Assembly (NCBI GenBank): GCA_937873445.1
Contig: CALMWF010000012.1
Location: forward strand, 1-38,515
DNA: 38,515 nucleotides
Direction: 5' to 3'
Origin: an uncultured Alphaproteobacteria bacterium
Lineage (GTDB): Bacteria > Pseudomonadota > Alphaproteobacteria > Rhizobiales > Aestuariivirgaceae
The position numbers and the translations under genes were made by a program. Positions 2,510 to 37,789 of this stretch are shown in pieces (position 1 is the first letter of the stretch; each line of letters begins with the position of its first letter). The notes beneath the pieces are model-generated. The model did not search any database. It was not told the origin of the DNA and was given only the letters and a program-made list of their open reading frames with translations.

Positions 2510-3403
2510 TTACACCGTGATCGACTGGTCTGCGCCAGTGTATGAGAACACCCGCTTGACACCATCGACATAGAGGACAATCAACCCATTTCCGCCCAGA
2601 ACCATCTTGCCTCCGCCTTGGCCGACGCCGGCCACGTAGTCCGCATCCAAGGCGTTTGGCGCAGCTATATTGGATGATGAGCTGCCTGTCGCAGGACCAT
2701 TGTTACCCTGGTTAGACGAGAACGACACCACAGTCATATTTGCATTTGTTGACGCAACGAATCCGCTGCCGCCGCCGCCACCACCGGCAACATTTCCGGT
2801 GTTTGACCAGCCTCCGCCACCACCATAGTAGCCGCCACCACCACCACCTGCGCCGGTAGAATTGGCAGTTCCACCTCGACCGCCCTGCAGGGCCGATCCA
2901 GCTGTTGGGGTGGTAGTCGCTCCAGCTGCCCCGGTTCCAGCAGCACCACCAGCGGACTGAGTGCCACCGCCACCAGCCATTGCATTAGATGACGATAGCG
3001 ACCCACCGGTGTTTCCCCCGCCACCACCGCCACCTGTTCCTGTGCTGTAATAAGCAGCCCCGCCGCCGCCGCCAGCAACGCCTATGCCATTTGCTTGCGC
3101 TATTGATTCAAGGAACACGCCGGATAATCCGCCACCACCGCCGCCGCCGTGTGCAGAGTTAAAGCCGGATGCGCCGCCTCCGCCATATGCTGGGGTTCCT
3201 TGAGATCGACCACCTTGGCCGACGACAATTTTTAAAACAGACCCCTTTGCCACCTTGAATGTGACAGTCAGATAACCTCCAGAACCGCCACCAGGAGATG
3301 AAACAGCGTAGAATCCGCCAGCACCACCAGCAGCCCAAATCTTGGCGACTATAGTCACATCTTGCAGAGCAGACGATGCAAGCATCCCCATCGTAAGGCT
3401 CAT
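2510..3403 (-). CDS. Glycine-rich tail tip adhesin
   Basis: A 297-aa protein whose ATG overlaps the fibre stop (ATGA). A short N-terminal segment, MSLTMGMLASSALQDVTIV, is followed by a beta-rich domain of the kind VTFKVAKGSVLKIVVGQGG, then a long region with many runs of 4 to 7 glycines (about residues 70-240) separated by short polar or aromatic segments, and a C-terminal strand region. Polyglycine-rich domains of this sort form receptor-binding tips (as in T4-like gp38 of phage S16) or Gly-rich fibre domains. Its position directly after the long tail fibre supports a role as the adhesin capping that fibre. The receptor is unknown. Confidence 0.65.
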   Translation of the reverse strand: MSLTMGMLASSALQDVTIVAKIWAAGGAGGFYAVSSPGGGSGGYLTVTFKVAKGSVLKIVVGQGGRSQGTPAYGGGGASGFNSAHGGGGGGGLSGVFLESIAQANGIGVAGGGGGAAYYSTGTGGGGGGGNTGGSLSSSNAMAGGGGTQSAGGAAGTGAAGATTTPTAGSALQGGRGGTANSTGAGGGGGGYYGGGGGWSNTGNVAGGGGGGSGFVASTNANMTVVSFSSNQGNNGPATGSSSSNIAAPNALDADYVAGVGQGGGKMVLGGNGLIVLYVDGVKRVFSYTGADQSITV

Positions 3404-5262
3404 GACTTGAGAGCTCCGATAAGCACCCAAACATTTGTTGCCTGCTTCCACAGCGTGGCTCCGGCGTATTGGCCCCCGAGCTTCAGCTTTGCACCAAGAG
3501 ACTGGACAGTAACTCCGACGTCTCCAGCCACTGACACATCGCCTGCACCAAGCGACAGGATGTCGATGCGTGTGCCAATTGGGTATGAGACAGAGGCATT
3601 GGTAGGAACCGTCAACGTGACTGCTGTTGCACTCGCCATAGTCACCATCTTGCCAGCATCACCAATTTCAAGGGTGTATGCCGACGTCTTGGCATTCTCT
3701 GTGACCTCTGCAAAGTCTGTGATCGATGACTTGGTGTGGGTGTGAGTGTCGGGCGGATAGGTTGACGGCTTACCGATGATGCCGAACCATGGTGCAGTCT
3801 CTGCCGCATCCACAACTCCATCAGAGTCTGTGTCATAGATGGACATGGACATATCACCGCTGCCAGAGCCTCCACCAACAACCAGGTTTCCAGGCCCCAT
3901 GATTGATAACCCGTTGACGGTTTTGATGTTGGTCCCAGAGACGAGAATTTCCTGCTTGGCGTTAAGGGCAGCTTGTGTTGCTGTGCTCACCGGCTTGTTT
4001 GCATCGGACGTGTTGTCCACGCTGCCAAGTCCAACCTGTGTCTTGGTCACAGCATGCGGGTTGTCGGTGCGGGCGGAGTGCGCCGATAGAGCTGCCGTCG
4101 TGGCATAGGTGGCTGCAACCTCTGATTCCAGCGCGTATTGTGCATGAGGGTCAGCAGTTTCCACGTGAGCCGTAATCCATCCAGCAGCCGTTCCAGCCAC
4201 CTCCTTCCCATCGAGCGCAGCCTGCAGGCCGGTGATGGTGGAGATGGCTTGTTCACCGGTGTGGTTTACTCGCTGGACAGAATGAGCCTTGGCAGCCGCC
4301 TCGGCGTCATCCGCCTCCTTCTTGGCAAAGGATGTGGTTGCCAACTGCGTGGTGTTGGTGTCAGGAACTGCTGTTGGTGCAGTTGGGTGGTCAGTAAAAA
4401 CAGGGCTTGCCAACGGTGCTTTAGCGGCCAGTGCGTTAGTCATTGTGGCTGCAAAATTAGGGTCATCACCAAGAGCTGTCGCTAGCTCGTTTAGAGTGTC
4501 GAGTGCTGCGGGTGATGAGGCAACAAGATCGGCAACCGCCGTCTTCACGAACCCTGTGGTGGCAATCTGGCTGGTGTTGGTGCCGGCGGCCGCCGTGGGT
4601 GCGGTGGGGGTGCCGACGAGCACCGGACTATCCAACGGGGCCTTGGTGGCCAGGGCCGCCGTGGCGGCCGTCAAATTGGACGTTATCTGCGCCTGCAGTC
4701 GGCCGAGTGCCGAGAGCACGGTGTCGGCAGCGGAAACAACGCCGTTTACTGCCGCTGAAAAGCCCGTGAGAACCGTGATCAAAACCCGGCCAGGGGTAAA
4801 ATATTGATTGGAGCTTCCCTCGGCCACCATGTCGGTTGTCGCGTTCTGAAGGATATCGACCACCACCACAACCTGCTCCGCCCACACGGTGAATTTGCGG
4901 CCGAATTCTGCTGCATACGGTGTACCTGGAGAGACGATGCGCAGAGGAATGACCGCCACCGGCCTGTCGGCCGACAGGTCCACAATTTCTGCTGAACCAT
5001 ACCCAATGGGGGCCGGGCTGAGATCAGCGGCGGACAGAGTAACGGTGACGGACGCTGCCGGCGAACCATCTCCCTGAACGCCCGAAACCTTGCCGTTGGC
5101 CTGGTTGGCAACGGCAAAATCAGATGAGGCTTTGAACCCGCGAAACCTCACCTCAATGGCCGATGGCAAGGAAATCGGCCCGCCGTTCTTTGCGCGAAAT
5201 TCAATGGGCAGAACCAGCGGCCTGCCTTGGAACACGGTTACTTCGGTGGCGGGCGCGCTCAT
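3400..5262 (-). CDS. Tail fibre protein
   Basis: A 620-aa fibre. The N-terminal 150 residues resemble a baseplate attachment domain. The shaft contains two repeats of the phage_fiber_2 type (KAPLDSPVLVGTPTAPT and KAPLASPVFTDHPTAPT, each ending in QIATTGFV or QLATTSFA). Later come repeats containing NPHAVTKTQVGLGSVDNTSD and KPVSTATQAALNAK, typical of trimeric fibres. The C-terminus (about 530-620) is a beta-rich domain. It overlaps both neighbours by 4 nt, so fibre, adhesin and upstream tail protein form one coupled unit. Base composition is visibly less GC-rich than in the head genes, as is common for exchanged host-range genes. Confidence 0.85.
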   Translation of the reverse strand: MSAPATEVTVFQGRPLVLPIEFRAKNGGPISLPSAIEVRFRGFKASSDFAVANQANGKVSGVQGDGSPAASVTVTLSAADLSPAPIGYGSAEIVDLSADRPVAVIPLRIVSPGTPYAAEFGRKFTVWAEQVVVVVDILQNATTDMVAEGSSNQYFTPGRVLITVLTGFSAAVNGVVSAADTVLSALGRLQAQITSNLTAATAALATKAPLDSPVLVGTPTAPTAAAGTNTSQIATTGFVKTAVADLVASSPAALDTLNELATALGDDPNFAATMTNALAAKAPLASPVFTDHPTAPTAVPDTNTTQLATTSFAKKEADDAEAAAKAHSVQRVNHTGEQAISTITGLQAALDGKEVAGTAAGWITAHVETADPHAQYALESEVAATYATTAALSAHSARTDNPHAVTKTQVGLGSVDNTSDANKPVSTATQAALNAKQEILVSGTNIKTVNGLSIMGPGNLVVGGGSGSGDMSMSIYDTDSDGVVDAAETAPWFGIIGKPSTYPPDTHTHTKSSITDFAEVTENAKTSAYTLEIGDAGKMVTMASATAVTLTVPTNASVSYPIGTRIDILSLGAGDVSVAGDVGVTVQSLGAKLKLGGQYAGATLWKQATNVWVLIGALKS

Positions 5263-26563: not shown

Positions 26564-26980
26564 TCAATCAAAGAGATCGCGCTGTCTGAGGGTTGCCTTG
26601 ACAGTCGGTGCAGCACCTGTCCGGTGCCTCTGCACAGTGCGGATATGCACACCACAGGCGCTGGCAATTTGCGTCCTGGGCCGCTTTTCGTCAATCATCG
26701 CTTTAACCCGCCGCCAGCGCGTCACGCGGCTGGCATAGGGCCCCATGGGAATGAGCACACGGCAGCCGTTGCCGGTTTTGATGGCATTGGCCACGGCGCA
26801 GGCCTTCTCCCACCCCAGGGCACGCGCCAGCGGGTGGTCCTCTCGCAGTTTCTCCGGCAGATAGATTTCCCTGCCACCAAAATGTCCCGCCACCGCCGCG
26901 GCCGTCCGATAGTCCGTCGCCGCCGCGATCTCGCGCAGCAGCTCCGGCAGGTCATCAATCAGACTTTGAAGGTCGCGCAT
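26564..26980 (-). CDS. Mor/C-family transcription activator
   Basis: A 138-aa protein (a GTG 24 nt upstream is an alternative start). It matches the Mor family: RDLQSLIDDLPELLREIAAATDYRTAAAVAGHFGGREIYLPEKL, then LGWEKACAVANAIKTGNGCRVLIPMG, and a C-terminal helix-turn-helix KRPRTQIASACGVHIRTVQRH. Mor activates the Mu middle promoter and its paralogue C the late promoters. Here a single family member lies immediately before the lysis operon and its dyad site, so it probably plays the C role or both. Confidence 0.85.
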   Translation of the reverse strand: MRDLQSLIDDLPELLREIAAATDYRTAAAVAGHFGGREIYLPEKLREDHPLARALGWEKACAVANAIKTGNGCRVLIPMGPYASRVTRWRRVKAMIDEKRPRTQIASACGVHIRTVQRHRTGAAPTVKATLRQRDLFD

Positions 26981-27058
26981 GTCAGGCACCAGGTCACGGC
27001 CCACGGTGCAGCGCGGGTAATGGGCGCTGAATAAGGCTTCAGAGACTCATCTGTCAAT

Positions 27059-27342: not shown

Positions 27343-27971
27343 GCTTCACCGCCCAGCAGGTCGCCCTGCTTCATCAGGCTGGCATCCTCCAGCGAGCGGT
27401 CCAGGGCCTCGGTCCATTGATTCCGCAGCAGCAAGCCCGACTGGTGCATGGCATCGAACAGGTTGAAGGCCTCGTCCCAGCTTTTTCCGATCATGATCTT
27501 GACGGTGGCCCGCCGGTAGCCGCCCTCGGCCAGCGTGCGGATGCGGTTCAGGAGCGGGTTGGACGCCAGCGCCATGGCCTTCAGGGCCGCGTTGTGGCGG
27601 CGCAGGGTTGCCACTTCCTCCGTATGGCTGCCGGTCAGGTAGGCGTCGATCACCAGATCAAGCTCCTGCTGATAGCGGATCAGGCAGTCGCGGGCCTCAG
27701 GCTTCACCCTGTTGGGGTTGATCGAATAGAGCCAGCCGCCCAGCCGGACGCGCGGAATGCAGGTCATTTCCTGCATGCCGCCAGCAGAGGTGCCCACCAT
27801 AAGGTGGATACCCCACCGTTCTTTTTGAGCCTGCAGACGACTGTGAACAGCCTTCCACACCATTCCAAATCGCTCACAAAGCGGCTTCAGCGGCACATAT
27901 TCGCTGCCGTCATCACTGATGATCAGGCGAATTCCCTCCTCGTGGAAGGGAACGGTCAGTTCCTTGGTCAT
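27339..27971 (-). CDS. Phage antirepressor (P22_AR_N domain)
   Basis: A 210-aa protein with the P22_AR_N antirepressor domain: YVPLKPLCERFGMVWKAVHSRLQ, then CIPRVRLGGWLYSINPNRVKPEARDCLIRYQQELDLVI (about 20-110). The rest is helical and lacks a known C-terminal domain. Such proteins inactivate phage repressors. Its leader (27981-28175) carries two sense-oriented copies and one antisense copy of a CTAGAAA...CGGTAAG element, one overlapping the ribosome site, so translation is probably held off by an antisense RNA of the C4 type. Confidence 0.85.
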   Translation of the reverse strand: MTKELTVPFHEEGIRLIISDDGSEYVPLKPLCERFGMVWKAVHSRLQAQKERWGIHLMVGTSAGGMQEMTCIPRVRLGGWLYSINPNRVKPEARDCLIRYQQELDLVIDAYLTGSHTEEVATLRRHNAALKAMALASNPLLNRIRTLAEGGYRRATVKIMIGKSWDEAFNLFDAMHQSGLLLRNQWTEALDRSLEDASLMKQGDLLGGEA

Positions 27972-27980
27972 GGAAAATTC

Positions 27981-28000
27981 CTTACCGTTGACGTTTCTAG
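27981..28000 (-). promoter_or_regulatory. Target site of the C4-like RNA at the antirepressor ribosome site
   Basis: CTAGAAACGTCAACGGTAAG on the minus strand ends in the Shine-Dalgarno-like TAAGGA, 10 nt before the ATG at 27971. Two 7-nt blocks, CTAGAAA and CGGTAAG, are perfectly complementary to the antisense element at 28032-28050. Confidence 0.6.
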
Positions 28001-28029
28001 ATTTCGCCAGTTTCCAGGCTGGCGCCGGG

Positions 28030-28175
28030 CGCTAGAAAACCTGCGGTAAGACAGGCCCCTGGGCTTTTCCCCTTGCGGGGTCTTGTATGGCCGAGGGACA
28101 CCCGACATAGCGTCGAGGCATGGAAAAACCGCCATGCGGGGCGGGGCCGCTTACCGTCAGGTGTTTTCTAGGCAC
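28030..28175 (-). ncRNA. C4-like antisense RNA in antirepressor leader
   Basis: On the minus strand the leader holds CTAGAAAACACCTGACGGTAAG (28171-28150), a stem-loop CCGCC-loop-GGCGG followed by TTTTT (28144-28124), a small stem CCCC-TTGC-GGGG type (28069-28080), then CTTACCGCAGGTTTTCTAG (28050-28032), which is the near reverse complement of the first element. The same element recurs in sense orientation at 28000-27981 over the antirepressor ribosome site. This matches the logic of P1/P7/P22 C4 RNA, in which an upstream leader RNA pairs with the ant ribosome region. The Rfam match was not tested. Confidence 0.65.
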
Positions 28176-28270
28176 CGTGGCGAGGACCATACCCTGATTT
28201 GTGGCGGTTGAAAAGATCATGGTTAACGACACATAAAATTCGCGCTAGGCTTGCCGAAAAGGAGATCAAG

Positions 28271-28702
28271 ATGGTTCGAAAATTGCTTCTGTTCGCTCTG
28301 CTCTTCTCGTCTCCTGCCCACGCCTATGATTGGAACAGGATTGAGCGCTACTGCGCTAAGACAAATCAAAACACCAAGGATCGTGAGTGGTGCCAAGTTC
28401 TGGAAATAAGTGCCGCCAAGACAATTGATGACGCCTTGAAGAGCAGTCCATCGCCAGAATTCACCCAACTCGCCAAGGGTTGTGTGAAGCGTATTCCCGC
28501 CTACACAGATGCACTTCCCTGTGTCACAAACGCTTATTCCGCCATCCGCCCTGCCGAACTGAGCACAGATCAGCCATCCGGTCCGCAGTTTGACAGCGAA
28601 GCATATTGCAACAAAGTTGCAGCTACGGTCGGGGGCAGTTACCAGATCTATGAAGCCTGTTTGCAGCAGGAAAACGAGGCAAGAAATCGGATCGGAAAGT
28701 GA
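28271..28702 (+). CDS. Secreted six-cysteine protein, probable moron
   Basis: A 143-aa protein on the plus strand, against nearly all its neighbours. The ATG follows AAGGAG; a signal peptide (MVRKLLLFALLFSSPAHA, cut before YDW) leads to a mature 125-aa protein with six cysteines in the contexts RYC, EWC, KGC, LPC, AYC and EAC, suggesting three disulfides in the periplasm. Base composition is clearly less GC-rich than the flanking phage genes. It ends 4 nt from the gemA stop (convergent). A possible promoter is TTGAAA-17-ACATAA near 28208-28236. No family recognised; likely lysogenic cargo. Confidence 0.7.
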   Translation: MVRKLLLFALLFSSPAHAYDWNRIERYCAKTNQNTKDREWCQVLEISAAKTIDDALKSSPSPEFTQLAKGCVKRIPAYTDALPCVTNAYSAIRPAELSTDQPSGPQFDSEAYCNKVAATVGGSYQIYEACLQQENEARNRIGK

Positions 28703-28706
28703 CATC

Positions 28707-29396
28707 TTAACGGTCTCCACCCCTAATCCTTTTCCCCAGCCCCTTTGAAACCCGTGCCCATTCCCCATGGGTCCACTCGTCAAAGTCATTGTTGCCCACC
28801 ACCTTGGCGGCATAGGCATAAAGCCCCTCGTCCGGGTGACGGTCACCGCCGCTCCACGTCTTGCCAGTGCTCACCAGCCCCGCCGTCAGCAATCTGCGCC
28901 ATTGCGCCTGGCACACCCTGAACCCTGGCATGTTGGTGTGGGCGGTAAAGCCCCGCCCCCTGGTGGACCAGTCCACCCCGCCGTCGCGCGCCAGCCAGGC
29001 GCGCAGTGCGCCGATCACGGCACTGGCCTTGTCAGCCTCCCGCAGCCAGCTTGCCCGCTCAATGCCCGTCTGGCGGCGGATAAAGGCCTCCATGGCGGCA
29101 TCGCTGGGATCGTGGATGATGCCGAGATTGAAGCCCGACACCCACAGCGCCTGAACCTTCTTCACAACCGCCTTTGCAGGGCCTGAAACAGCCCTTTGCG
29201 GCATGGTGAAGCCACGGTGCTCCAGATGGCCGATCACCACCTTAAGCTGGTGCACCGAACATTCCTTTGCCGAGCGGAGGCCGGTCTTGGCCTCCAGCAT
29301 GTCACGGTAGGTGTCATCATCCAGCCCGGCCTTGGACCGGGCCATATGAATGCGCGCCAGAAGGCCGCGCCGCTCGTCGAAGGCTGCCTGGGCCAT
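28707..29396 (-). CDS. GemA-like regulatory protein (Mu gp16, DUF1018)
   Basis: A 229-aa protein of the GemA/DUF1018 family. The N-terminus LARIHMARSKAGLDDDTYRDMLEAKTGLRSAKECSVHQLKVVIGHLEHRGF is the family signature. The second half includes LWVSGFNLGIIHDPSDAAMEAFIRRQTG and ends KGLGKRIRGGDR. In Mu, GemA affects host gene expression and supercoiling during early infection. It overlaps nothing but starts 3 nt after the hydrolase stop. Confidence 0.9.
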   Translation of the reverse strand: MAQAAFDERRGLLARIHMARSKAGLDDDTYRDMLEAKTGLRSAKECSVHQLKVVIGHLEHRGFTMPQRAVSGPAKAVVKKVQALWVSGFNLGIIHDPSDAAMEAFIRRQTGIERASWLREADKASAVIGALRAWLARDGGVDWSTRGRGFTAHTNMPGFRVCQAQWRRLLTAGLVSTGKTWSGGDRHPDEGLYAYAAKVVGNNDFDEWTHGEWARVSKGLGKRIRGGDR

Positions 29397-31867: not shown

Positions 31868-32489
31868 GGAATACCTCCCGAGCCAGTGCAACGCCGTAAA
31901 AGGTCCGGGTATTGAGATCATAGGCCAGGGTTGCCTCGCACAGGCGCGGCGGCAGTGGTCCGGTGTCCATCAGGCGGCGAAGCCGCAGCTGCTCCTCACC
32001 CCGTGGGGTGTCACCGAAAAGGCTTTCAAGATAGCCGGCGGCACGCAGAAACCCGACAATGCCACTGACTTCCCGCAGCCGCGCATCGGCAATGGTGGGC
32101 CGCACATCATCCCACAGGAGCCGCACTGTAAACTCCTTGCGGATGCGTATAGCCTTCCACACCGCTTGGCGCAGGGTAAACCAGCGGTCAGGCTGTGATC
32201 TGGTATTCAGCACCACCACCGATGACGGCAATCGGGTGATGGCGTATAGAATTTGACGGTCAGTGGTAGAGCCAGCAACCAGGGCTATCCCGGCACGGAC
32301 TAGCCGAGCGAGATAGTAGTCGGCACTGGTGGTGCTGCCGCCACTCACTCTTGCCAGATCACCAGCGGTGAACCCGGTGCGGAGGTTGGCAATCTCGCGC
32401 AGGGCCAGAAACATTTCCTCCTGGCCTGGTTCGATGGTGATGCTGAAATGGTCATGCACGGGGCGCTTGAGAGGCACAACAACGCTCAT
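31857..32489 (-). CDS. Winged-helix-like early protein, unknown
   Basis: A 210-aa protein directly after the MuB gene (4-nt overlap). GFTAGDLARVSGGSTTSADYYLARLVRAGIALV (about 39-71) fits a winged helix-turn-helix, and a second such segment may lie around ARLREVSGIVGFLRAAGYLE. Not recognised by name. The position after MuB suggests a role in replication control or early regulation. Confidence 0.6.
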   Translation of the reverse strand: MSVVVPLKRPVHDHFSITIEPGQEEMFLALREIANLRTGFTAGDLARVSGGSTTSADYYLARLVRAGIALVAGSTTDRQILYAITRLPSSVVVLNTRSQPDRWFTLRQAVWKAIRIRKEFTVRLLWDDVRPTIADARLREVSGIVGFLRAAGYLESLFGDTPRGEEQLRLRRLMDTGPLPPRLCEATLAYDLNTRTFYGVALAREVFHVA

Positions 32490-33250
32490 TTGCCCGCCCT
32501 CCGCAGAGTGCGTGGCGGGTTGCCCGCGTAAGTGTCTTCAATGACCCATGATTGCAGGTCGATGGTGGTCAGCTGCTCGCGGATGGCCTTTACCCGCGCC
32601 CGGTCAATATTCGATACGATGTAGCGCGTGACGCCGTGGCATTGCTCAACGAAGTGTTTCAGAAGGTCGTCGGCCAGCTTGACCTCGGGGGCGTTTGCCT
32701 CCGCCAGTGCCCGCGCATCCTCAGGACGACAATATTCGGCGGCAACCCATTTTGAAACACGGCTGTGCGCCCGGTCGTAGGGGATCAGCTTGGCGTGGAT
32801 ATTTTCTTCGCCGATAAGGACTATGGGTGACAATGTTTTGAGGTGAATGTAGCGCACCACATCCACCAACCGCTTGTCGATCAGGAAGTTGGCCTCGTCG
32901 AAAATCAGCGGGCGCGGGCTTTCAGACAGAATGTTGATGATCCTGTCCAGCTTCTTGTTCACGGTGCCACGCAGGTCCCGCTCCATCAGCTCGTGCAGGA
33001 TGTTGTCCATCAGCGTGCTCGAATTCCAGGTTGGACCGCATTCGATGTAGATGCAGTCGAGATTGATTGCGGTGCGCGTGGCTGCGACGGTCTTTCCCAG
33101 CCCGGCACGGCCATAGAAAACACCCCAGCCCGGCAAGAAGGATGAACGCTCCATCAGGCCTAGCACCAGTTCATAGAACGCTGTGACATTCGGCAGGCCA
33201 AGAATGCTCCCTGCCTTGCCTGCATTGACTCTCGGCTCGTTTTTCGCCAT
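32486..33250 (-). CDS. MuB-like AAA+ target-selection ATPase
   Basis: A 254-aa ATPase that by family binds DNA, picks transposition targets and stimulates the transposase. Walker A is GRAGLGKT (47-54) and Walker B is LIFDEA (115-120). The C-terminal part (ALAEANAPEVKLADDLLKHFVEQCHGVTRYIVSNI) resembles the AAA lid. It is somewhat shorter than Mu B (312 aa) and seems to lack the extended N-terminal domain. It follows the transposase gene after a 60-bp gap. Confidence 0.92.
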   Translation of the reverse strand: MAKNEPRVNAGKAGSILGLPNVTAFYELVLGLMERSSFLPGWGVFYGRAGLGKTVAATRTAINLDCIYIECGPTWNSSTLMDNILHELMERDLRGTVNKKLDRIINILSESPRPLIFDEANFLIDKRLVDVVRYIHLKTLSPIVLIGEENIHAKLIPYDRAHSRVSKWVAAEYCRPEDARALAEANAPEVKLADDLLKHFVEQCHGVTRYIVSNIDRARVKAIREQLTTIDLQSWVIEDTYAGNPPRTLRRAGK

Positions 33251-33278
33251 TTTAACCACCGTTCGATATTTGGGTTGC

Positions 33279-33312
33279 GCGCTTCCCCGTTACAGCGGGG
33301 AGCGCTTTTTTT
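33279..33312 (+). terminator. Rho-independent terminator oriented on the plus strand
   Basis: GCGCTTCCCCG-TTACAG-CGGGGAGCGC followed by seven T on the plus strand (33306-33312). The T-run overlaps the transposase stop codon on the other strand. For the minus-strand operon the T-run is on the wrong side, so this would stop antisense transcription rather than the early operon. Confidence 0.7.
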
Positions 33313-35455
33313 ACGCCTGGTTGAGCCACTCACTGCCAAAGCTCAGCACCATCTCGGCGCACGCTTTGAATTCTGCGTCCTTTTCGTAACCGCCAAGCCA
33401 GCGCGCGTCCTCGGCGCTGACGGCATCACCCGCGTCGATGCGCGCCCGTATATCCAGCGCCCGGCGATAGCGTTGTTGTTTTGTCTCGCGCATTGGCACG
33501 ATGTTGGCCGTCGCGGCTCTGGGCATCGCAGGTCGCGATTCCTCTGCCCGCATTGCCATGGCCTCTGCCGCCTGCTCCAATGCTCTGCTGCTGTGACCCT
33601 CCACTGGCTTGGGAAAGGCGGTCACGCTGGCGCTCTTGCGCGCGCCGAGGTCAAGCACCGCGTCCACCATGTCGCGCGGTTTGATCCGCGCCTTCAGTCG
33701 GCGCATTTCGGCCCGGCCTTCCCTGGTGATGGCCTCATGCTCGGCCCGCACGGCGGCAATCGCCTTACGCGGATCAACCCCGGCCAGGCGCGGGCAGATG
33801 GCTTCGCCGATGAATTCGCCCAGCTCGTCGGCAAACACATAAAGCCTGCCCATGTCCGTGCCGTCGCGGCGGCAAAAGACCCGCTGCCCGGCAAAAATCC
33901 TGCCGGAAACAAAATAGTCGTGCTCAATGCGGATGCCGCGCTTGGTCACTTGGCGCCACCCGCCCGGAACCGGCGACAGCAGCATGTCCAGAGCGTGAAC
34001 ATTGGCCACCTGTTTCACGGTTCCGGGCGAAGCTGCAGCCTTGGCAAAGGGGGTTATGTTGCCAAGGCCGCCATGGGCACGGTGGGCATAGACATCGCGC
34101 GCCCACGCATCGAGTTTTTCTTGAAGCTCGTTGGCTGTCAGGTTGACGGCAAAGGCCTTTTCATCGCTCTCACCAAGCCGGTTGGCAAAGCTGCGCCGAG
34201 CCTCGATCTGTTTTCGATCTTCAACATTATGACCGATGAAGCCGGGCAGAAGCGGCATGAAACCCCGCTGCATGGTGCCGATCATCCGCTCCACGATGCC
34301 CTTTTGCTCCGGCGAAAAGGGGTCGCTCACCTCGTGGCGGATGCCAACCAATGCCATGGCCTGAACGAAGGCGCGGCTCTTGAAATCGGAGCCATTGTCG
34401 GTGCGGATCGTGTCCGGCACGCCCCAGGCCAGAATGGCCTTGCGCACCAGTGTCAGCGTGGCCTCGGTGCGCGCCACCTTGGACACGTGGAAAAGAGCGC
34501 GGCGTGAATAGACATCCACACAGGCATAGACCGATTGCCTCCCATCCAGGGTGAGCGCATCGGACGGCGATGCGTCGATCTCCCAACACTGGTTGACCTG
34601 CCCCACATGCGCATAGGCGTTATGGCCAGCCAGTCGCATGTGAGATTTGTAGCGGTCAGGGTCATGGAAGGCCGTCAGTGACCGCCGATTTTCGTTCTTC
34701 CAGGCCGTCATGAAGCGGTTGAACGAGGCCTCGTGTGGCAGTGCCACCTCGCGCGCACCATCGCTCAGCGTGGCACCGAATTTGGCTTCCACCAACTGCC
34801 GCACATGCGCGGCGGTGAGAAACGGCTGATGCACGATAAGGGCTTTGATGTGTTCTGCCACCGCCCCGTCATTCACCCGCTCGATGAGCGGCCGGACCTT
34901 TCGGCCATCTCCGCGAATGGCGTGAAAGCGGCCCTGGTCGCGGGCCTTGCGCCACCGCGCCAAAGAACGCGTGGAAACCCTGGGAAGCGCCAGTTTCAGC
35001 CAGTCAGGAACGTCGATTTCACGCCTGTTGAAACGCCGTGCAAAGTCGTCGTCTGCCCCCTTGCGGCCCAGCGCCCGATTGGCGCGGTAGTGCTCATCGG
35101 CCATGGTCAGCACGGCCAGCCCTGCATCACGGCGCAGCGTCTGCCCCTTGCTGAGGGCGATGGGCGGCGATGCAGTCAGGGCCGAAGGTGTAGCGGGCTT
35201 GATGGGAGTGGGTGAAACCTTGGCACGCTGCGCCGCCAGCGCAATGCGCGCATCGGAGGGCAGCAGCGAGGTGTGATACTCAATGCCGCCGCCGCCATCG
35301 CGGCCGGCGCGCCTCCGTGCCAGGGCTTCGCCGGTCGGCGCCTTGCGGTCGGCCCACCCCTCGGCCATGGCCACTCTGTTCACATTGCGCTTTGTGCCGG
35401 GCATGCCCGGCAAAGCCAGCTCGGCAATCTCGCGCGCGGTGAGCCAGTGGGTCAT
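33311..35455 (-). CDS. MuA-type DDE transposase
   Basis: A 714-aa transposase that by family assembles on the phage ends and carries out integration and replicative transposition. The N-terminal Mu-type HTH is HWLTAREIAELALPGMPGT...NRVAMAEGWADRK (about 3-38). The catalytic core has Asp294 (WEIDASPSDA), Asp353 (RTDNGSDF) and Glu389 (QKGIVERMIG). A Mu_transpos_C beta domain follows (RGIRIEHDYFVSGRIFAGQRVFCRRDGTDMGRLYVF, about 510-545), then a basic helical tail likely to contact MuB. Length is close to MuA (663 aa). Confidence 0.95.
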   Translation of the reverse strand: MTHWLTAREIAELALPGMPGTKRNVNRVAMAEGWADRKAPTGEALARRRAGRDGGGGIEYHTSLLPSDARIALAAQRAKVSPTPIKPATPSALTASPPIALSKGQTLRRDAGLAVLTMADEHYRANRALGRKGADDDFARRFNRREIDVPDWLKLALPRVSTRSLARWRKARDQGRFHAIRGDGRKVRPLIERVNDGAVAEHIKALIVHQPFLTAAHVRQLVEAKFGATLSDGAREVALPHEASFNRFMTAWKNENRRSLTAFHDPDRYKSHMRLAGHNAYAHVGQVNQCWEIDASPSDALTLDGRQSVYACVDVYSRRALFHVSKVARTEATLTLVRKAILAWGVPDTIRTDNGSDFKSRAFVQAMALVGIRHEVSDPFSPEQKGIVERMIGTMQRGFMPLLPGFIGHNVEDRKQIEARRSFANRLGESDEKAFAVNLTANELQEKLDAWARDVYAHRAHGGLGNITPFAKAAASPGTVKQVANVHALDMLLSPVPGGWRQVTKRGIRIEHDYFVSGRIFAGQRVFCRRDGTDMGRLYVFADELGEFIGEAICPRLAGVDPRKAIAAVRAEHEAITREGRAEMRRLKARIKPRDMVDAVLDLGARKSASVTAFPKPVEGHSSRALEQAAEAMAMRAEESRPAMPRAATANIVPMRETKQQRYRRALDIRARIDAGDAVSAEDARWLGGYEKDAEFKACAEMVLSFGSEWLNQA

Positions 35456-35661: not shown

Positions 35662-35915
35662 CGCCCCTCCTGCTTCTTGATCTCGGCGTCAATGGCGGCG
35701 CGTAGATCATCACCCCGGATGCCACACGAGCGCAGCTTGGCCGCGTATTTCTTGAGGTGCGGTGGCACATCAACAAACCCGCACGCCGCCCTGAACTCCG
35801 GGTCGGCATGGAGGGCCTTCATCCGCGCTGCCACCGCCGCCCTGAACTCCGGGTCGGCATGGCGGGCCTTCATCCGCGCCGCCGCTTCCGCCCGTTTTTC
35901 ATGTGTCCAGCCCAT
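35658..35915 (-). CDS. Small early protein with 17-aa tandem repeats
   Basis: An 85-aa protein starting at an ATG that overlaps the ParB-like stop (TGATG). After GWTHEKRAEAA come two near-identical 17-aa units of the form RMKAxHADPEFRAAxAA (51-bp DNA tandem repeat). The C-terminal part GIRGDDLRAAIDAEIKKQEGR is helical. Short Arg/Lys-rich repeats of this sort resemble NUMOD-like DNA-binding modules, but this is only a resemblance. Confidence 0.6.
   Translation of the reverse strand: MGWTHEKRAEAAARMKARHADPEFRAAVAARMKALHADPEFRAACGFVDVPPHLKKYAAKLRSCGIRGDDLRAAIDAEIKKQEGR
35785..35886. repeat. 51-bp tandem repeat, two copies
   Basis: CTGAACTCCGGGTCGGCATG recurs at 35791 and 35842 with a 51-bp period; flanking bases match with few changes. 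It encodes the two 17-aa units of the overlapping minus-strand gene. Confidence 0.8.
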
Positions 35916-36715
35916 CACATCCCATCCTCTTTGGTGATGTGGTTCTTGATCTGCCGCTTCACCTTCCGGCTGGCCCGCGCCCACAGTTTCAGAAAAGCCG
36001 CGAAGTCGCGCTCGTCGGGGGCCTTGATGTCCACCTTGTTGTCGATGATCGAAAGCGCCGCCGACACGGTGGTGGCCTGGGGGTTGTCGGCCATCAGCAG
36101 GTCCAGGGCGCGGGCTTGCCCATTCGCATCCAGCTTGGACAGGGCCACCAGCTGTGCCCGGTTGTCGGCCAGCGGATGCCCCGCCAGGCGTGACCGCGTG
36201 TCGGCGGTCAACTTGTTGTGCAGATCGGCATCGGCAAAGATAGTGCGCCGCGACAGGCCCATTTTTCCGGCCACATCGTCGCCCAGGGAAAAAAGTGCAA
36301 TGTTTGCACTTTTTTCGTGCCTGCCCTTCCGGCCCCGCGTTTCACCATGAAGTTGCAGGTAAACTTCCTTCAGTTCCGCCACATGGGCGGCCCGGTCCAG
36401 CGCCGAAAGCTCGCGGCGGCCAACATTCTCGGCAATCTCGTGAAGGCGTAACTCCAGTTCCGGCTTGTCGGTGTCCGGGCTGATGATCCGGGCCGGAATA
36501 TCCTTCCGCCCCAACAGCTGGAAGGCCGCCAGCCGGTGGGCACCCGAGGCCAGCCGATAACTATTACCGATCAGCATGATTTCGACGGGGTGCTGCAGCC
36601 CCGTGGCCTCGATCACCTTTGCCAGACCTTCAACCCACCCGGCGTCAACCTGGCGCAACCGGTCACCCACCTCAATGTCAGCGATGGGAAAGGCTCCGCT
36701 CTCGATCAGCGCCAT
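35915..36715 (-). CDS. ParB/Srx-like domain protein
   Basis: A 266-aa protein. The ParB-like N-terminal domain reads PIADIEVGDRLRQVDAGWVEGLAKVIEATGLQHPVEIMLIGNSYRLASGAHRLAAFQLLG, including GAHRLAA in place of the usual GERRxxA box, followed by ELRLHEIAENVGRRELSALDRAAHVAELKEVY. A helix-turn-helix comes near DDVAGKMGLSRRTIFADADL. ParB proteins use CTP and bind DNA; in phages they act in regulation, replication or partition. The ATG has GGAG upstream. Confidence 0.85.
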   Translation of the reverse strand: MALIESGAFPIADIEVGDRLRQVDAGWVEGLAKVIEATGLQHPVEIMLIGNSYRLASGAHRLAAFQLLGRKDIPARIISPDTDKPELELRLHEIAENVGRRELSALDRAAHVAELKEVYLQLHGETRGRKGRHEKSANIALFSLGDDVAGKMGLSRRTIFADADLHNKLTADTRSRLAGHPLADNRAQLVALSKLDANGQARALDLLMADNPQATTVSAALSIIDNKVDIKAPDERDFAAFLKLWARASRKVKRQIKNHITKEDGM

Positions 36716-36852
36716 GATTGTGCTCCATTTGGTAAAGGCGAGGGGATCAGCCGACCTGCACGCCGACTGATCCCCCCTTGCGTGGTTGGGGCACCACACA
36801 CCCGCCGTGGCGTCACCAGCGGCGGAACAGAATGATTGAGCCAGCTCACCAT
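36706..36852 (-). CDS. Possible 48-aa peptide between membrane peptide and parB-like gene
   Basis: The frame opens with ATG overlapping the previous gene by 7 nt and closes inside the start of the parB-like gene. The composition (Pro, Arg, Ser-rich) and missing ribosome site make it doubtful; it may simply be leader sequence. Confidence 0.25.
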   Translation of the reverse strand: MVSWLNHSVPPLVTPRRVCGAPTTQGGISRRAGRLIPSPLPNGAQSWR

Positions 36853-37408: not shown

Positions 37409-37789
37409 ATGAAAAGTGGCTGGGGTCAAAGGCTTAGAGAGGTTCGGGGTAGGATCGCACAGGAATTGTGGGGGCCACTGGTGGGCGTCAGCCGGGCCGC
37501 CTGGGCCAATTATGAGGCTGAGAAGTCGTCCCCGTCGCTCGATCTGTTGATTCGTCTCCAGAAAGAATACGGTGCTGATCTCAACTACATTGCCAGCGGG
37601 GCATTACACCGTTCGTTCGATGTGACCGTCCTGGCTGATGTCATACGAGGCGTTGAGGAATCGAATATAGAGATTGACCCACTTTCGCGTGCAAAACTCA
37701 TCGCTGCCCTTTACGCCGATAGGATAAAAACCCTAGAACAGGACGAGAACGCAAGGCCAGCCATTAAAGGCAAGGGTTCGCGTTTTTAA
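37409..37789 (+). CDS. XRE-type phage repressor
   Basis: A 126-aa protein on the plus strand, divergent from the early operon. The N-terminal HTH is WGQRLREVRGRIAQELWGPLVGVSRAAWANYEAEKSSPSLDLLIRLQKEYGADLNYIASG (about 5-65). The C-terminal half is helical and has no peptidase (LexA-like) domain, so antirepressor rather than self-cleavage would lift repression, which fits the antirepressor at 27339-27971. Fits the place of Mu c. Confidence 0.8.
   Translation: MKSGWGQRLREVRGRIAQELWGPLVGVSRAAWANYEAEKSSPSLDLLIRLQKEYGADLNYIASGALHRSFDVTVLADVIRGVEESNIEIDPLSRAKLIAALYADRIKTLEQDENARPAIKGKGSRF

Follow-up and report, generated by a model that had tools for sequence, protein, structure and literature searches.

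The window, by which we mean the whole stretch of 38,515 nucleotides analysed here, carries a Mu-like transposable phage, as a preliminary description of the same DNA had proposed: a transposase, a transposition protein, GemA and a late activator are all recognized by matches within it (Table 1). The antirepressor gene on the minus strand encodes a protein whose P22_AR_N identity, also named in that description, is borne out by a PF10547 match of 97.8 bits (cut-off 30.7; E 5.7e-28), and the protein matches the PHROG anti-repressor Ant as well (E 8.6e-33). The putative repressor, said to lack a self-cleaving domain, is indeed a small protein of 126 aa in which no such domain is seen, since Pfam gives nothing for it at E up to 0.001. 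A divergent ORF (28271-28702, plus strand) situated between gemA and the leader of the antirepressor has a signal-peptide-like start and no PHROG match; the longer ORF that encloses it (28199-28702) has no Pfam match, and the gene is perhaps a moron. A ParB-like partition protein (35915-36799, minus strand; PHROG E 1.9e-48) is encoded near the transposase gene.

Table 1. Features of the antirepressor leader and of the surrounding phage genes, in window coordinates.
Feature	Position	Strand	Remarks
Promoter-like pair	TTTTCA 28214-28209, 17 nt, TATGGT 28191-28186	minus	-10 ends 14 nt before sense1
Sense copy 1 (sense1)	28171-28150	minus	CTAGAAAACACCTGACGGTAAG; counterpart of P1 a1/b1
Intrinsic-terminator-like hairpin	28144-28129, TTTTT 28128-28124	minus	CCGCCCCGCATGGCGG; directly after sense1
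sRNA-Xcc1-type (RF02221) structured RNA	28016-28106	minus	covariance match; MFE fold shows three stems
Antisense element	28050-28032	minus	CTTACCGCAGGTTTTCTAG; P3 loop CUUACC (28050-28045), P3 3' arm and linker
Sense copy 2 (sense2)	28000-27981	minus	CTAGAAACGTCAACGGTAAG; counterpart of P1 a2/b2; runs into GAATTTTCC
Shine-Dalgarno TAAGGA	27984-27979	minus	overlapped by sense2
Antirepressor start codon ATG	27971-27969	minus	
Antirepressor gene	27971-27339	minus	210 aa, P22_AR_N domain
Late-activator-like gene	26564-27004		
GemA gene	28707-29396		
Transposition protein gene	32486-33259		
Transposase gene	33311-35455		Pfam/PHROG matches
Putative repressor gene	37409-37789		126 aa; PHROG matches to phage repressors/regulators, E 3.9e-6 and 6.6e-5

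Read 5' to 3' on the minus strand, the antirepressor leader consists of a promoter-like pair, sense1, the terminator-like hairpin, a folded RNA that bears the antisense element, and sense2 lying on the Shine-Dalgarno sequence. The three copies upstream of the antirepressor gene, with the antisense one between two sense ones, the second sense copy on the ribosome site and the T-tailed stem-loop had each been described from the sequence and could each be located; the extent proposed at that time (27971-28175) holds these parts, but the unit is wider and reaches 28214 with its promoter-like pair. The folded RNA is built of a closing stem (P1), a hairpin with an AUACAA internal loop and a GNRA-type tip (P2), a second hairpin (P3) and a linker, and when 28106-28016 is folded to its MFE structure, the second hairpin exposes CUUACC in its loop, complementary to GGUAAG at the ribosome site. 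The promoter-like pair agrees with the consensus at 8 of 12 positions, which is weak taken alone, and a stricter sigma-70 scan called no promoter in 27800-28800.

The match between sense1 and the antisense element (score 29) was reached by none of 5000 dinucleotide shuffles, and none of 500 had a duplex energy as low as the -40.1 kcal/mol of this pair. The match of sense2 (score 17) is weak taken alone because it is split into two halves: 144 of 5000 dinucleotide shuffles reached it, and 3 of 500 were as low as its duplex energy of -20.5 kcal/mol. When both halves are required (CTAGAAA, 0-12 nt, CGGTAAG), a pattern composed after the sequence had been seen, none of 50,000 shuffles contains them. 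That the three copies are chance repeats in a GC-rich leader, for which the 144 shuffles are the one point to be made, is scarcely credible in view of the result for sense1, of covariance matches at E about 1e-6 and of the same wiring in relatives, and it is these relatives that make the stronger case against chance than the statistics of the window.

The whole leader folds more stably than most of its shuffles (MFE z = -2.78; 1 of 200 as low), and in this fold 18 of the 19 antisense bases are paired with sense1 and none with sense2. Such pairing, together with the position of the antisense RNA directly upstream of its target on the same strand, fits a switch that acts only in cis, in which sense1, the antisense element and sense2 are alternative partners in one transcript and no free trans-acting RNA exists. 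We consider this improbable, with a small share of the probability left to it: the RNA has a closed and covarying fold of its own, the founding member of its family is described in the available passages of its report as a mapped 88-nt RNA in Xanthomonas (PMC2996969), and the annotation of phage P1 treats C4, which is wired in the same way, as an RNA by itself.

As to the family of this RNA, a cmscan search at permissive settings aligns RF02221 (sRNA-Xcc1) with it over the full length of the model (positions 1-87 of 87) at 44.1 bits and E 1.5e-6, under the curated cut-off of 53 bits, and the next-best RF02221 matches in the genome have E values of 4.5 and 7.2. The conserved AUACAA/ACCC/GGG core is shared. 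A model of our own, R1, whose 41 source RNAs are all viral and exclude the window, finds the RNA at 28108-28022 (E 7.8e-7) as its single match in the 38.5 kb, and it also finds five named phage pieces and three SymE loci. Judged by these covariance matches, the window RNA is a diverged sRNA-Xcc1 RNA. The curated cut-off is passed by all 20 viral loci scanned (from at least 120 fetched) and by four of five named phages, and two loci from the window's genus, L125 (51.9 bits) and L126 (43.1 bits), lie under it. Among 69 genomes of the same family, the window's own included, RF02221 finds the RNA in three and R1 in two, all of them in the window's genus.

For a 12-pair structure given by hand, read from the same sequences on which it was evaluated and leaving aside the outer part of P2, 94.3% of the cells are paired versus 76.9% in shuffles, and the covariation score is 0.490 versus 0.181 in shuffles and at most 0.106 in slid versions; pairs changed on both sides number 7 versus 5.9 in shuffles (131/500), which is no excess. 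This structure replaced the output of RNAalifold on a MAFFT alignment, which recovered only six pairs of the closing stem because the hairpins were shifted between rows.

The preliminary description had called the RNA a C4 RNA and had proposed a search with the Rfam C4 covariance model, a missing match counting against the idea. That search finds no match to RF01695 in the window at the gathering threshold, nor in 27800-28400 at E up to 10, and P1 c4 scores 68.8 bits with the same tool as a positive control; R1, conversely, does not find P1 c4 at E up to 1. A whole-genome C4 search also gave no match and shows little, its control genomes having likewise given none. Membership of the Rfam C4 family was thus dropped in favour of sRNA-Xcc1, a result that bears on the family label and not on the mechanism. 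It would be possible to argue that a true C4 RNA was overlooked by the model, since the topology is the same, with a closing stem, two hairpins and the antisense lying in P3 and linker, and so is the wiring, yet with models that fail in both directions, a control that succeeds and P2 domains that differ, this is very unlikely.

The likeness to the C4 system of P1 and P7 (RF01695; c4-a1b1, RF03163) is one of design. In both, an upstream sense copy is followed by a structured RNA and a two-part downstream sense copy that reaches the start of the antirepressor operon, and the antisense lies in the second hairpin and the linker (its place within C4 being read from the model). The differences, besides the missing model match in either direction, are that the first hairpin of the window RNA has an AUACAA internal loop and a GNRA-type tip, as opposed to the plain UUCG hairpin of C4, and that the window RNA stands directly before the antirepressor gene, whereas in P1, annotated in the order a1, b1, C4 RNA, a2, b2, icd, ant1, icd intervenes. 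The window RNA thus very likely works like C4, as far as a comparison of sequences can tell, without being a member of RF01695.

The same wiring is found in many relatives. The core pattern occurs in at least 120 viral stretches and at least 119 named genome stretches. The viral set comprises 112 distinct cores, the window included, of which 92 could be examined (a closing stem of 7 or more pairs and flanks of adequate length), and the genome set comprises 95 distinct RNAs from at least 120 genome matches; among the matches listed, the merged set holds 192 distinct RNAs (101 viral, the window and 90 genomic), 180 of them with an ORF. When each RNA was compared with its own and with foreign flanks, with ties scored in favour and among the matches listed, the own flank came within the top 5% in 76 of 92 cases upstream and 51 of 92 downstream for the viral set with the window, and in 83 of 95 and 41 of 95, respectively, for the genome set. 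A test confined to the ribosome window placed 110 of 180 in the top 5%, against about 9 expected, again with ties in favour and among the matches listed; when ties are counted against, as in the per-class test, the sums over the classes are 84 of 180 at the ribosome site and 147 of 180 upstream among the same matches. These alignments of the element took the place of RNAduplex on 250-nt flanks, where own and foreign medians differed modestly (-29.35 vs -25.6 downstream, -33.0 vs -27.1 upstream), probably because GC-rich stems dominate there.

Shared ancestry was handled by comparing pairs of RNAs with a similar scaffold and a different element. In non-overlapping pairs of such look-alike RNAs, taken as one random draw, the cognate element beats the swapped one upstream in 65 of 67 pairs (no losses, two ties) and at the ribosome site in 47 of 58 (eight losses, three ties); when all look-alike pairs are taken, the cognate element wins 1163 and loses 13 of 1188 comparisons upstream, and wins 894 and loses 136 of 1110 at the ribosome site. 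These changes can be followed clearly in L076, L080 and the second copy at L098, whose scaffolds are near-identical: the loop differs and both sense copies differ accordingly, and in L098 a change in the linker is also matched by a change in both sense copies. By eye, the same-genus loci L125 and L126 likewise have the three copies, in a different sequence. The sequences compared thus show directly the parts and their order, the recurrence of both and the concordant change of loop and targets.

At the level of DNA similarity, phage records searched by BLAST with the window unit yielded one match of note, to a Pseudomonas phage, over 51 bases that lie within the gene of the unit; the others had E values of about 1. 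Leader DNA resembling that of Rac-SA53 is present in 158 of 5,426 E. coli genomes, in 38 of them with at least 80% of the query.

The upstream sense copy is also framed in a recurrent manner. In 110 of 156 loci (among the matches listed, with the window counted) a terminator hairpin separates sense1 from the RNA, where 8.8 are expected from dinucleotide shuffles and control stretches (their number not recorded) gave 5, under a rule relaxed to loops of up to 14 after the hairpins had been seen and applied equally to the shuffles and to the controls; the strict rule (loops of up to 8) gives 26 of 156 versus 3.4 by mononucleotide shuffles. Within the 60 nt that precede sense1, sigma-70 matches at 9 or more of 12 positions occur in 76 of 140 loci versus 3 of 135 control stretches, and 72 of these 76 end 6-16 nt ahead of sense1, both counts being among the matches listed. 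With a promoter before it and a terminator after it in so many loci, a short terminated RNA would tend to begin with sense1. The terminator loops of the relatives contain a recurrent CCCGTCAG/CCCGACAG/CCCGATAG string in many of the loci viewed (every fifth one), which exceeds what a plain terminator would need.

The genes behind these RNAs are often of the kind found in the window. From 96 downstream ORFs among the matches listed, 74 were kept by dropping by eye the duplicates, odd loci and starts far from the RNA, a trimming that favours clean cases, and in these 74 the Pfam families are P22_AR_C (12), Bro-N (12), Phage_pRha (11), KilA-N (9), AntA (7), ORF6N (7), P22_AR_N (5), ORF6C (4), ORF11CD3 (2) and three general HTH families (1 each), one protein possibly counting twice. 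We take nearly all of these families to be of antirepressor type. A PHROG scan of 30 of the 74 proteins, chosen by hand and not drawn at random, gave 16 matches with an anti-repressor name, 13 proteins with none and one HNH endonuclease. BLAST clustering of the 180 genes (among the matches listed) yields a largest cluster of 81, named antirepressor from the Pfam and PHROG scans and not scanned gene by gene, in which, with ties counted against, the upstream match passes in 66 of 81, the ribosome-site match in 48 of 81 and both in 36 of 81. Among five phage records hand-picked from 27 listed, the RNA precedes the annotated antirepressor in Rac-SA53, VHML, IFTN1 and Aaphi23, and in Smp131 it lies inside an annotated antirepressor whose annotated start is upstream of the RNA.

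Other genes are found behind the RNA as well. Fifteen loci (L144, L155, L191, L196 and L198 among them) precede 'GYFLPEDSQLRL' proteins, which are presumably XAC0095-like, and have sense1 in 15 of 15 and sense2 in 0 of 15, with terminators present in the examples printed. Six L005-type metagenomic loci are without the wiring (upstream 0 of 6, ribosome site 1 of 6), ten L010-type loci with 80-aa proteins pass 10 of 10 upstream and 5 of 10 at the ribosome site, and 65 loci with other small or unassigned genes pass 53 and 27 times, respectively. In view of these groups, a reading as antisense on the ribosome site does not cover all RF02221-like RNAs. Several loci (L206, L193, L121, L114, L116, L125:1621-1938 and others) encode products of 70-110 aa without a family match that look helical by eye; they are possibly new small antirepressors or Icd-like proteins.

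Taken together, the leader from 28214 to 27972 on the minus strand is in all probability a C4-type RNA switch built on an sRNA-Xcc1-family RNA. The earlier proposal of antirepressor control by antisense RNA thus keeps its wiring and function, which are strongly supported by 191 other distinct RNAs and by P1 c4, and loses its assignment to the C4 family. How the switch would operate, namely its transcription and processing, the direction of regulation, the competition by sense1 and the action on the repressor encoded at 37409, we infer from this arrangement. Transcription would begin directly upstream of sense1 and many transcripts would end at the terminator, giving a short leader RNA that bears sense1. 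Read-through transcripts would carry the folded RNA, either freed or acting in place, whose P3 loop CUUACC and linker would pair with sense2 and cover the Shine-Dalgarno sequence, so that no antirepressor would be made and the prophage would stay silent. Sense1, in the leader RNA or in cis, would compete for the antisense element, such that sense2 could be freed and the antirepressor could then disable the repressor, leading to phage induction. Silencing in trans would extend to an incoming related phage that shares the element and not to one whose P3 loop differs.

This picture differs from how sRNA-Xcc1 has been presented so far. In its literature, as represented by the passages available, it is an integron-cassette RNA tied to HrpG/HrpX, with one paper discussing a symE cassette (PMC12444791), and those passages do not present it as an antisense RNA of antirepressors. 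Publications found to name sRNA-Xcc1, within a scope that covered few subscription journals, include none that also names an antirepressor or anti-repressor and one that also names symE; among the matches listed and in the text available, the broader literature holds nothing that contradicts this absence, and a review of phage sRNAs covers c4 and IsrK, with no occurrence of Xcc1 in its available text (PMC12197685). The role of a trans-acting regulator of host genes, which the accessible parts of the Xanthomonas and Xylella papers give to sRNA-Xcc1, has on its side the target predictions made there for it and for the Xylella homologues (PMC2996969, PMC12189769). We regard this as a most unlikely role, given that the variable loop tracks the flanking sense copies, also between look-alike RNAs, which is not what a fixed host target would cause, and that the copy in Xanthomonas arboricola has sense2 on the ribosome site of symE.

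SymE (PF08845) stands behind the RNA at three loci among the matches listed, in Xanthomonas arboricola (L186), a Lysobacter MAG (L197) and a gammaproteobacterial MAG (L147). All three carry sense2 on the symE ribosome site and pass both the upstream and the ribosome-site tests, which recalls the SymE/SymR pair, although E. coli symR is cis-encoded according to the passages available (PMC12444791) and the RNA here lies upstream on the same strand. The same passages describe symE with sRNA-Xcc1 as the most widespread Xanthomonas cassette and name 'a divergent regulatory mechanism' without giving one (PMC12444791).

Known prophage RNAs resemble the sense1 half of the unit. IsrK of Gifsy-1 is a terminated leader RNA; in a reporter, according to the available part of its report, it increased translation of the antirepressor anrP 139-fold (PMC4825925), and the IsrK-orf45-anrP leader (RF01394) shares with the window a short terminated leader RNA and a read-through antirepressor mRNA, as far as that text describes it (PMC4825925). 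IsrK is reported there to activate by refolding the mRNA. The isrK model has no match in the window; against the a1/b1 leader of P1 with its terminator (L249:181-262) it scores 35.1 bits (E 7.5e-6, under the cut-off of 50), which suggests that IsrK is the same kind of RNA as the P1 leader. The anti-sRNAs of E. coli O157 prophages are given, in the excerpts available, as 51-60 nt long, of which about 42 nt on the 3' side are conserved and 14-18 nt on the 5' side vary (PMC4104026). The design of the sense1-terminator leader is like that of these RNAs (AgvB, AsxR); Rfam gives no match to AgvB or AsxR in the eight loci scanned at E up to 0.1, so that the link to them is a likeness of design only.

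A joint reading of these findings, in which we place about even trust, is that sRNA-Xcc1 forms a second large class of phage immunity RNAs beside C4, with a hypervariable P3 loop and the two sense copies that match it setting the immunity groups. From its one promoter each unit would then yield a pair of small RNAs that oppose each other, a terminated sense leader that serves as a "sponge" (e.g., IsrK, and perhaps AgvB/AsxR) and the antisense RNA, and integrons would have captured the unit with symE. Were this capture to have occurred, Xanthomonas would have in its 'virulence-linked' sRNA-Xcc1 the antisense half of a pair that resembles a toxin and its antitoxin.

The proposed C4-type switch would provide a concrete job for an orphan Rfam family hitherto viewed mainly through integrons and virulence regulation, and it would place the wiring known from C4 in a Mu-like phage, in phages of the Rac, P2, VHML and other types, and in many genomes, most of them proteobacterial. 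It would also offer a possible induction route for phages whose repressor is without a self-cleaving domain, a loop of a few bases that predicts which co-resident or incoming phages silence each other, and a possible explanation for short prophage leader RNAs studied as stand-alone regulators. Both kinds of unit can be found side by side: the viral contig L047 (2422-3753) contains two isrK/C4 pairs and one sRNA-Xcc1 RNA within 1.4 kb, and one C4 and the sRNA-Xcc1 RNA stand there in series before the same ORF (2876-3511).
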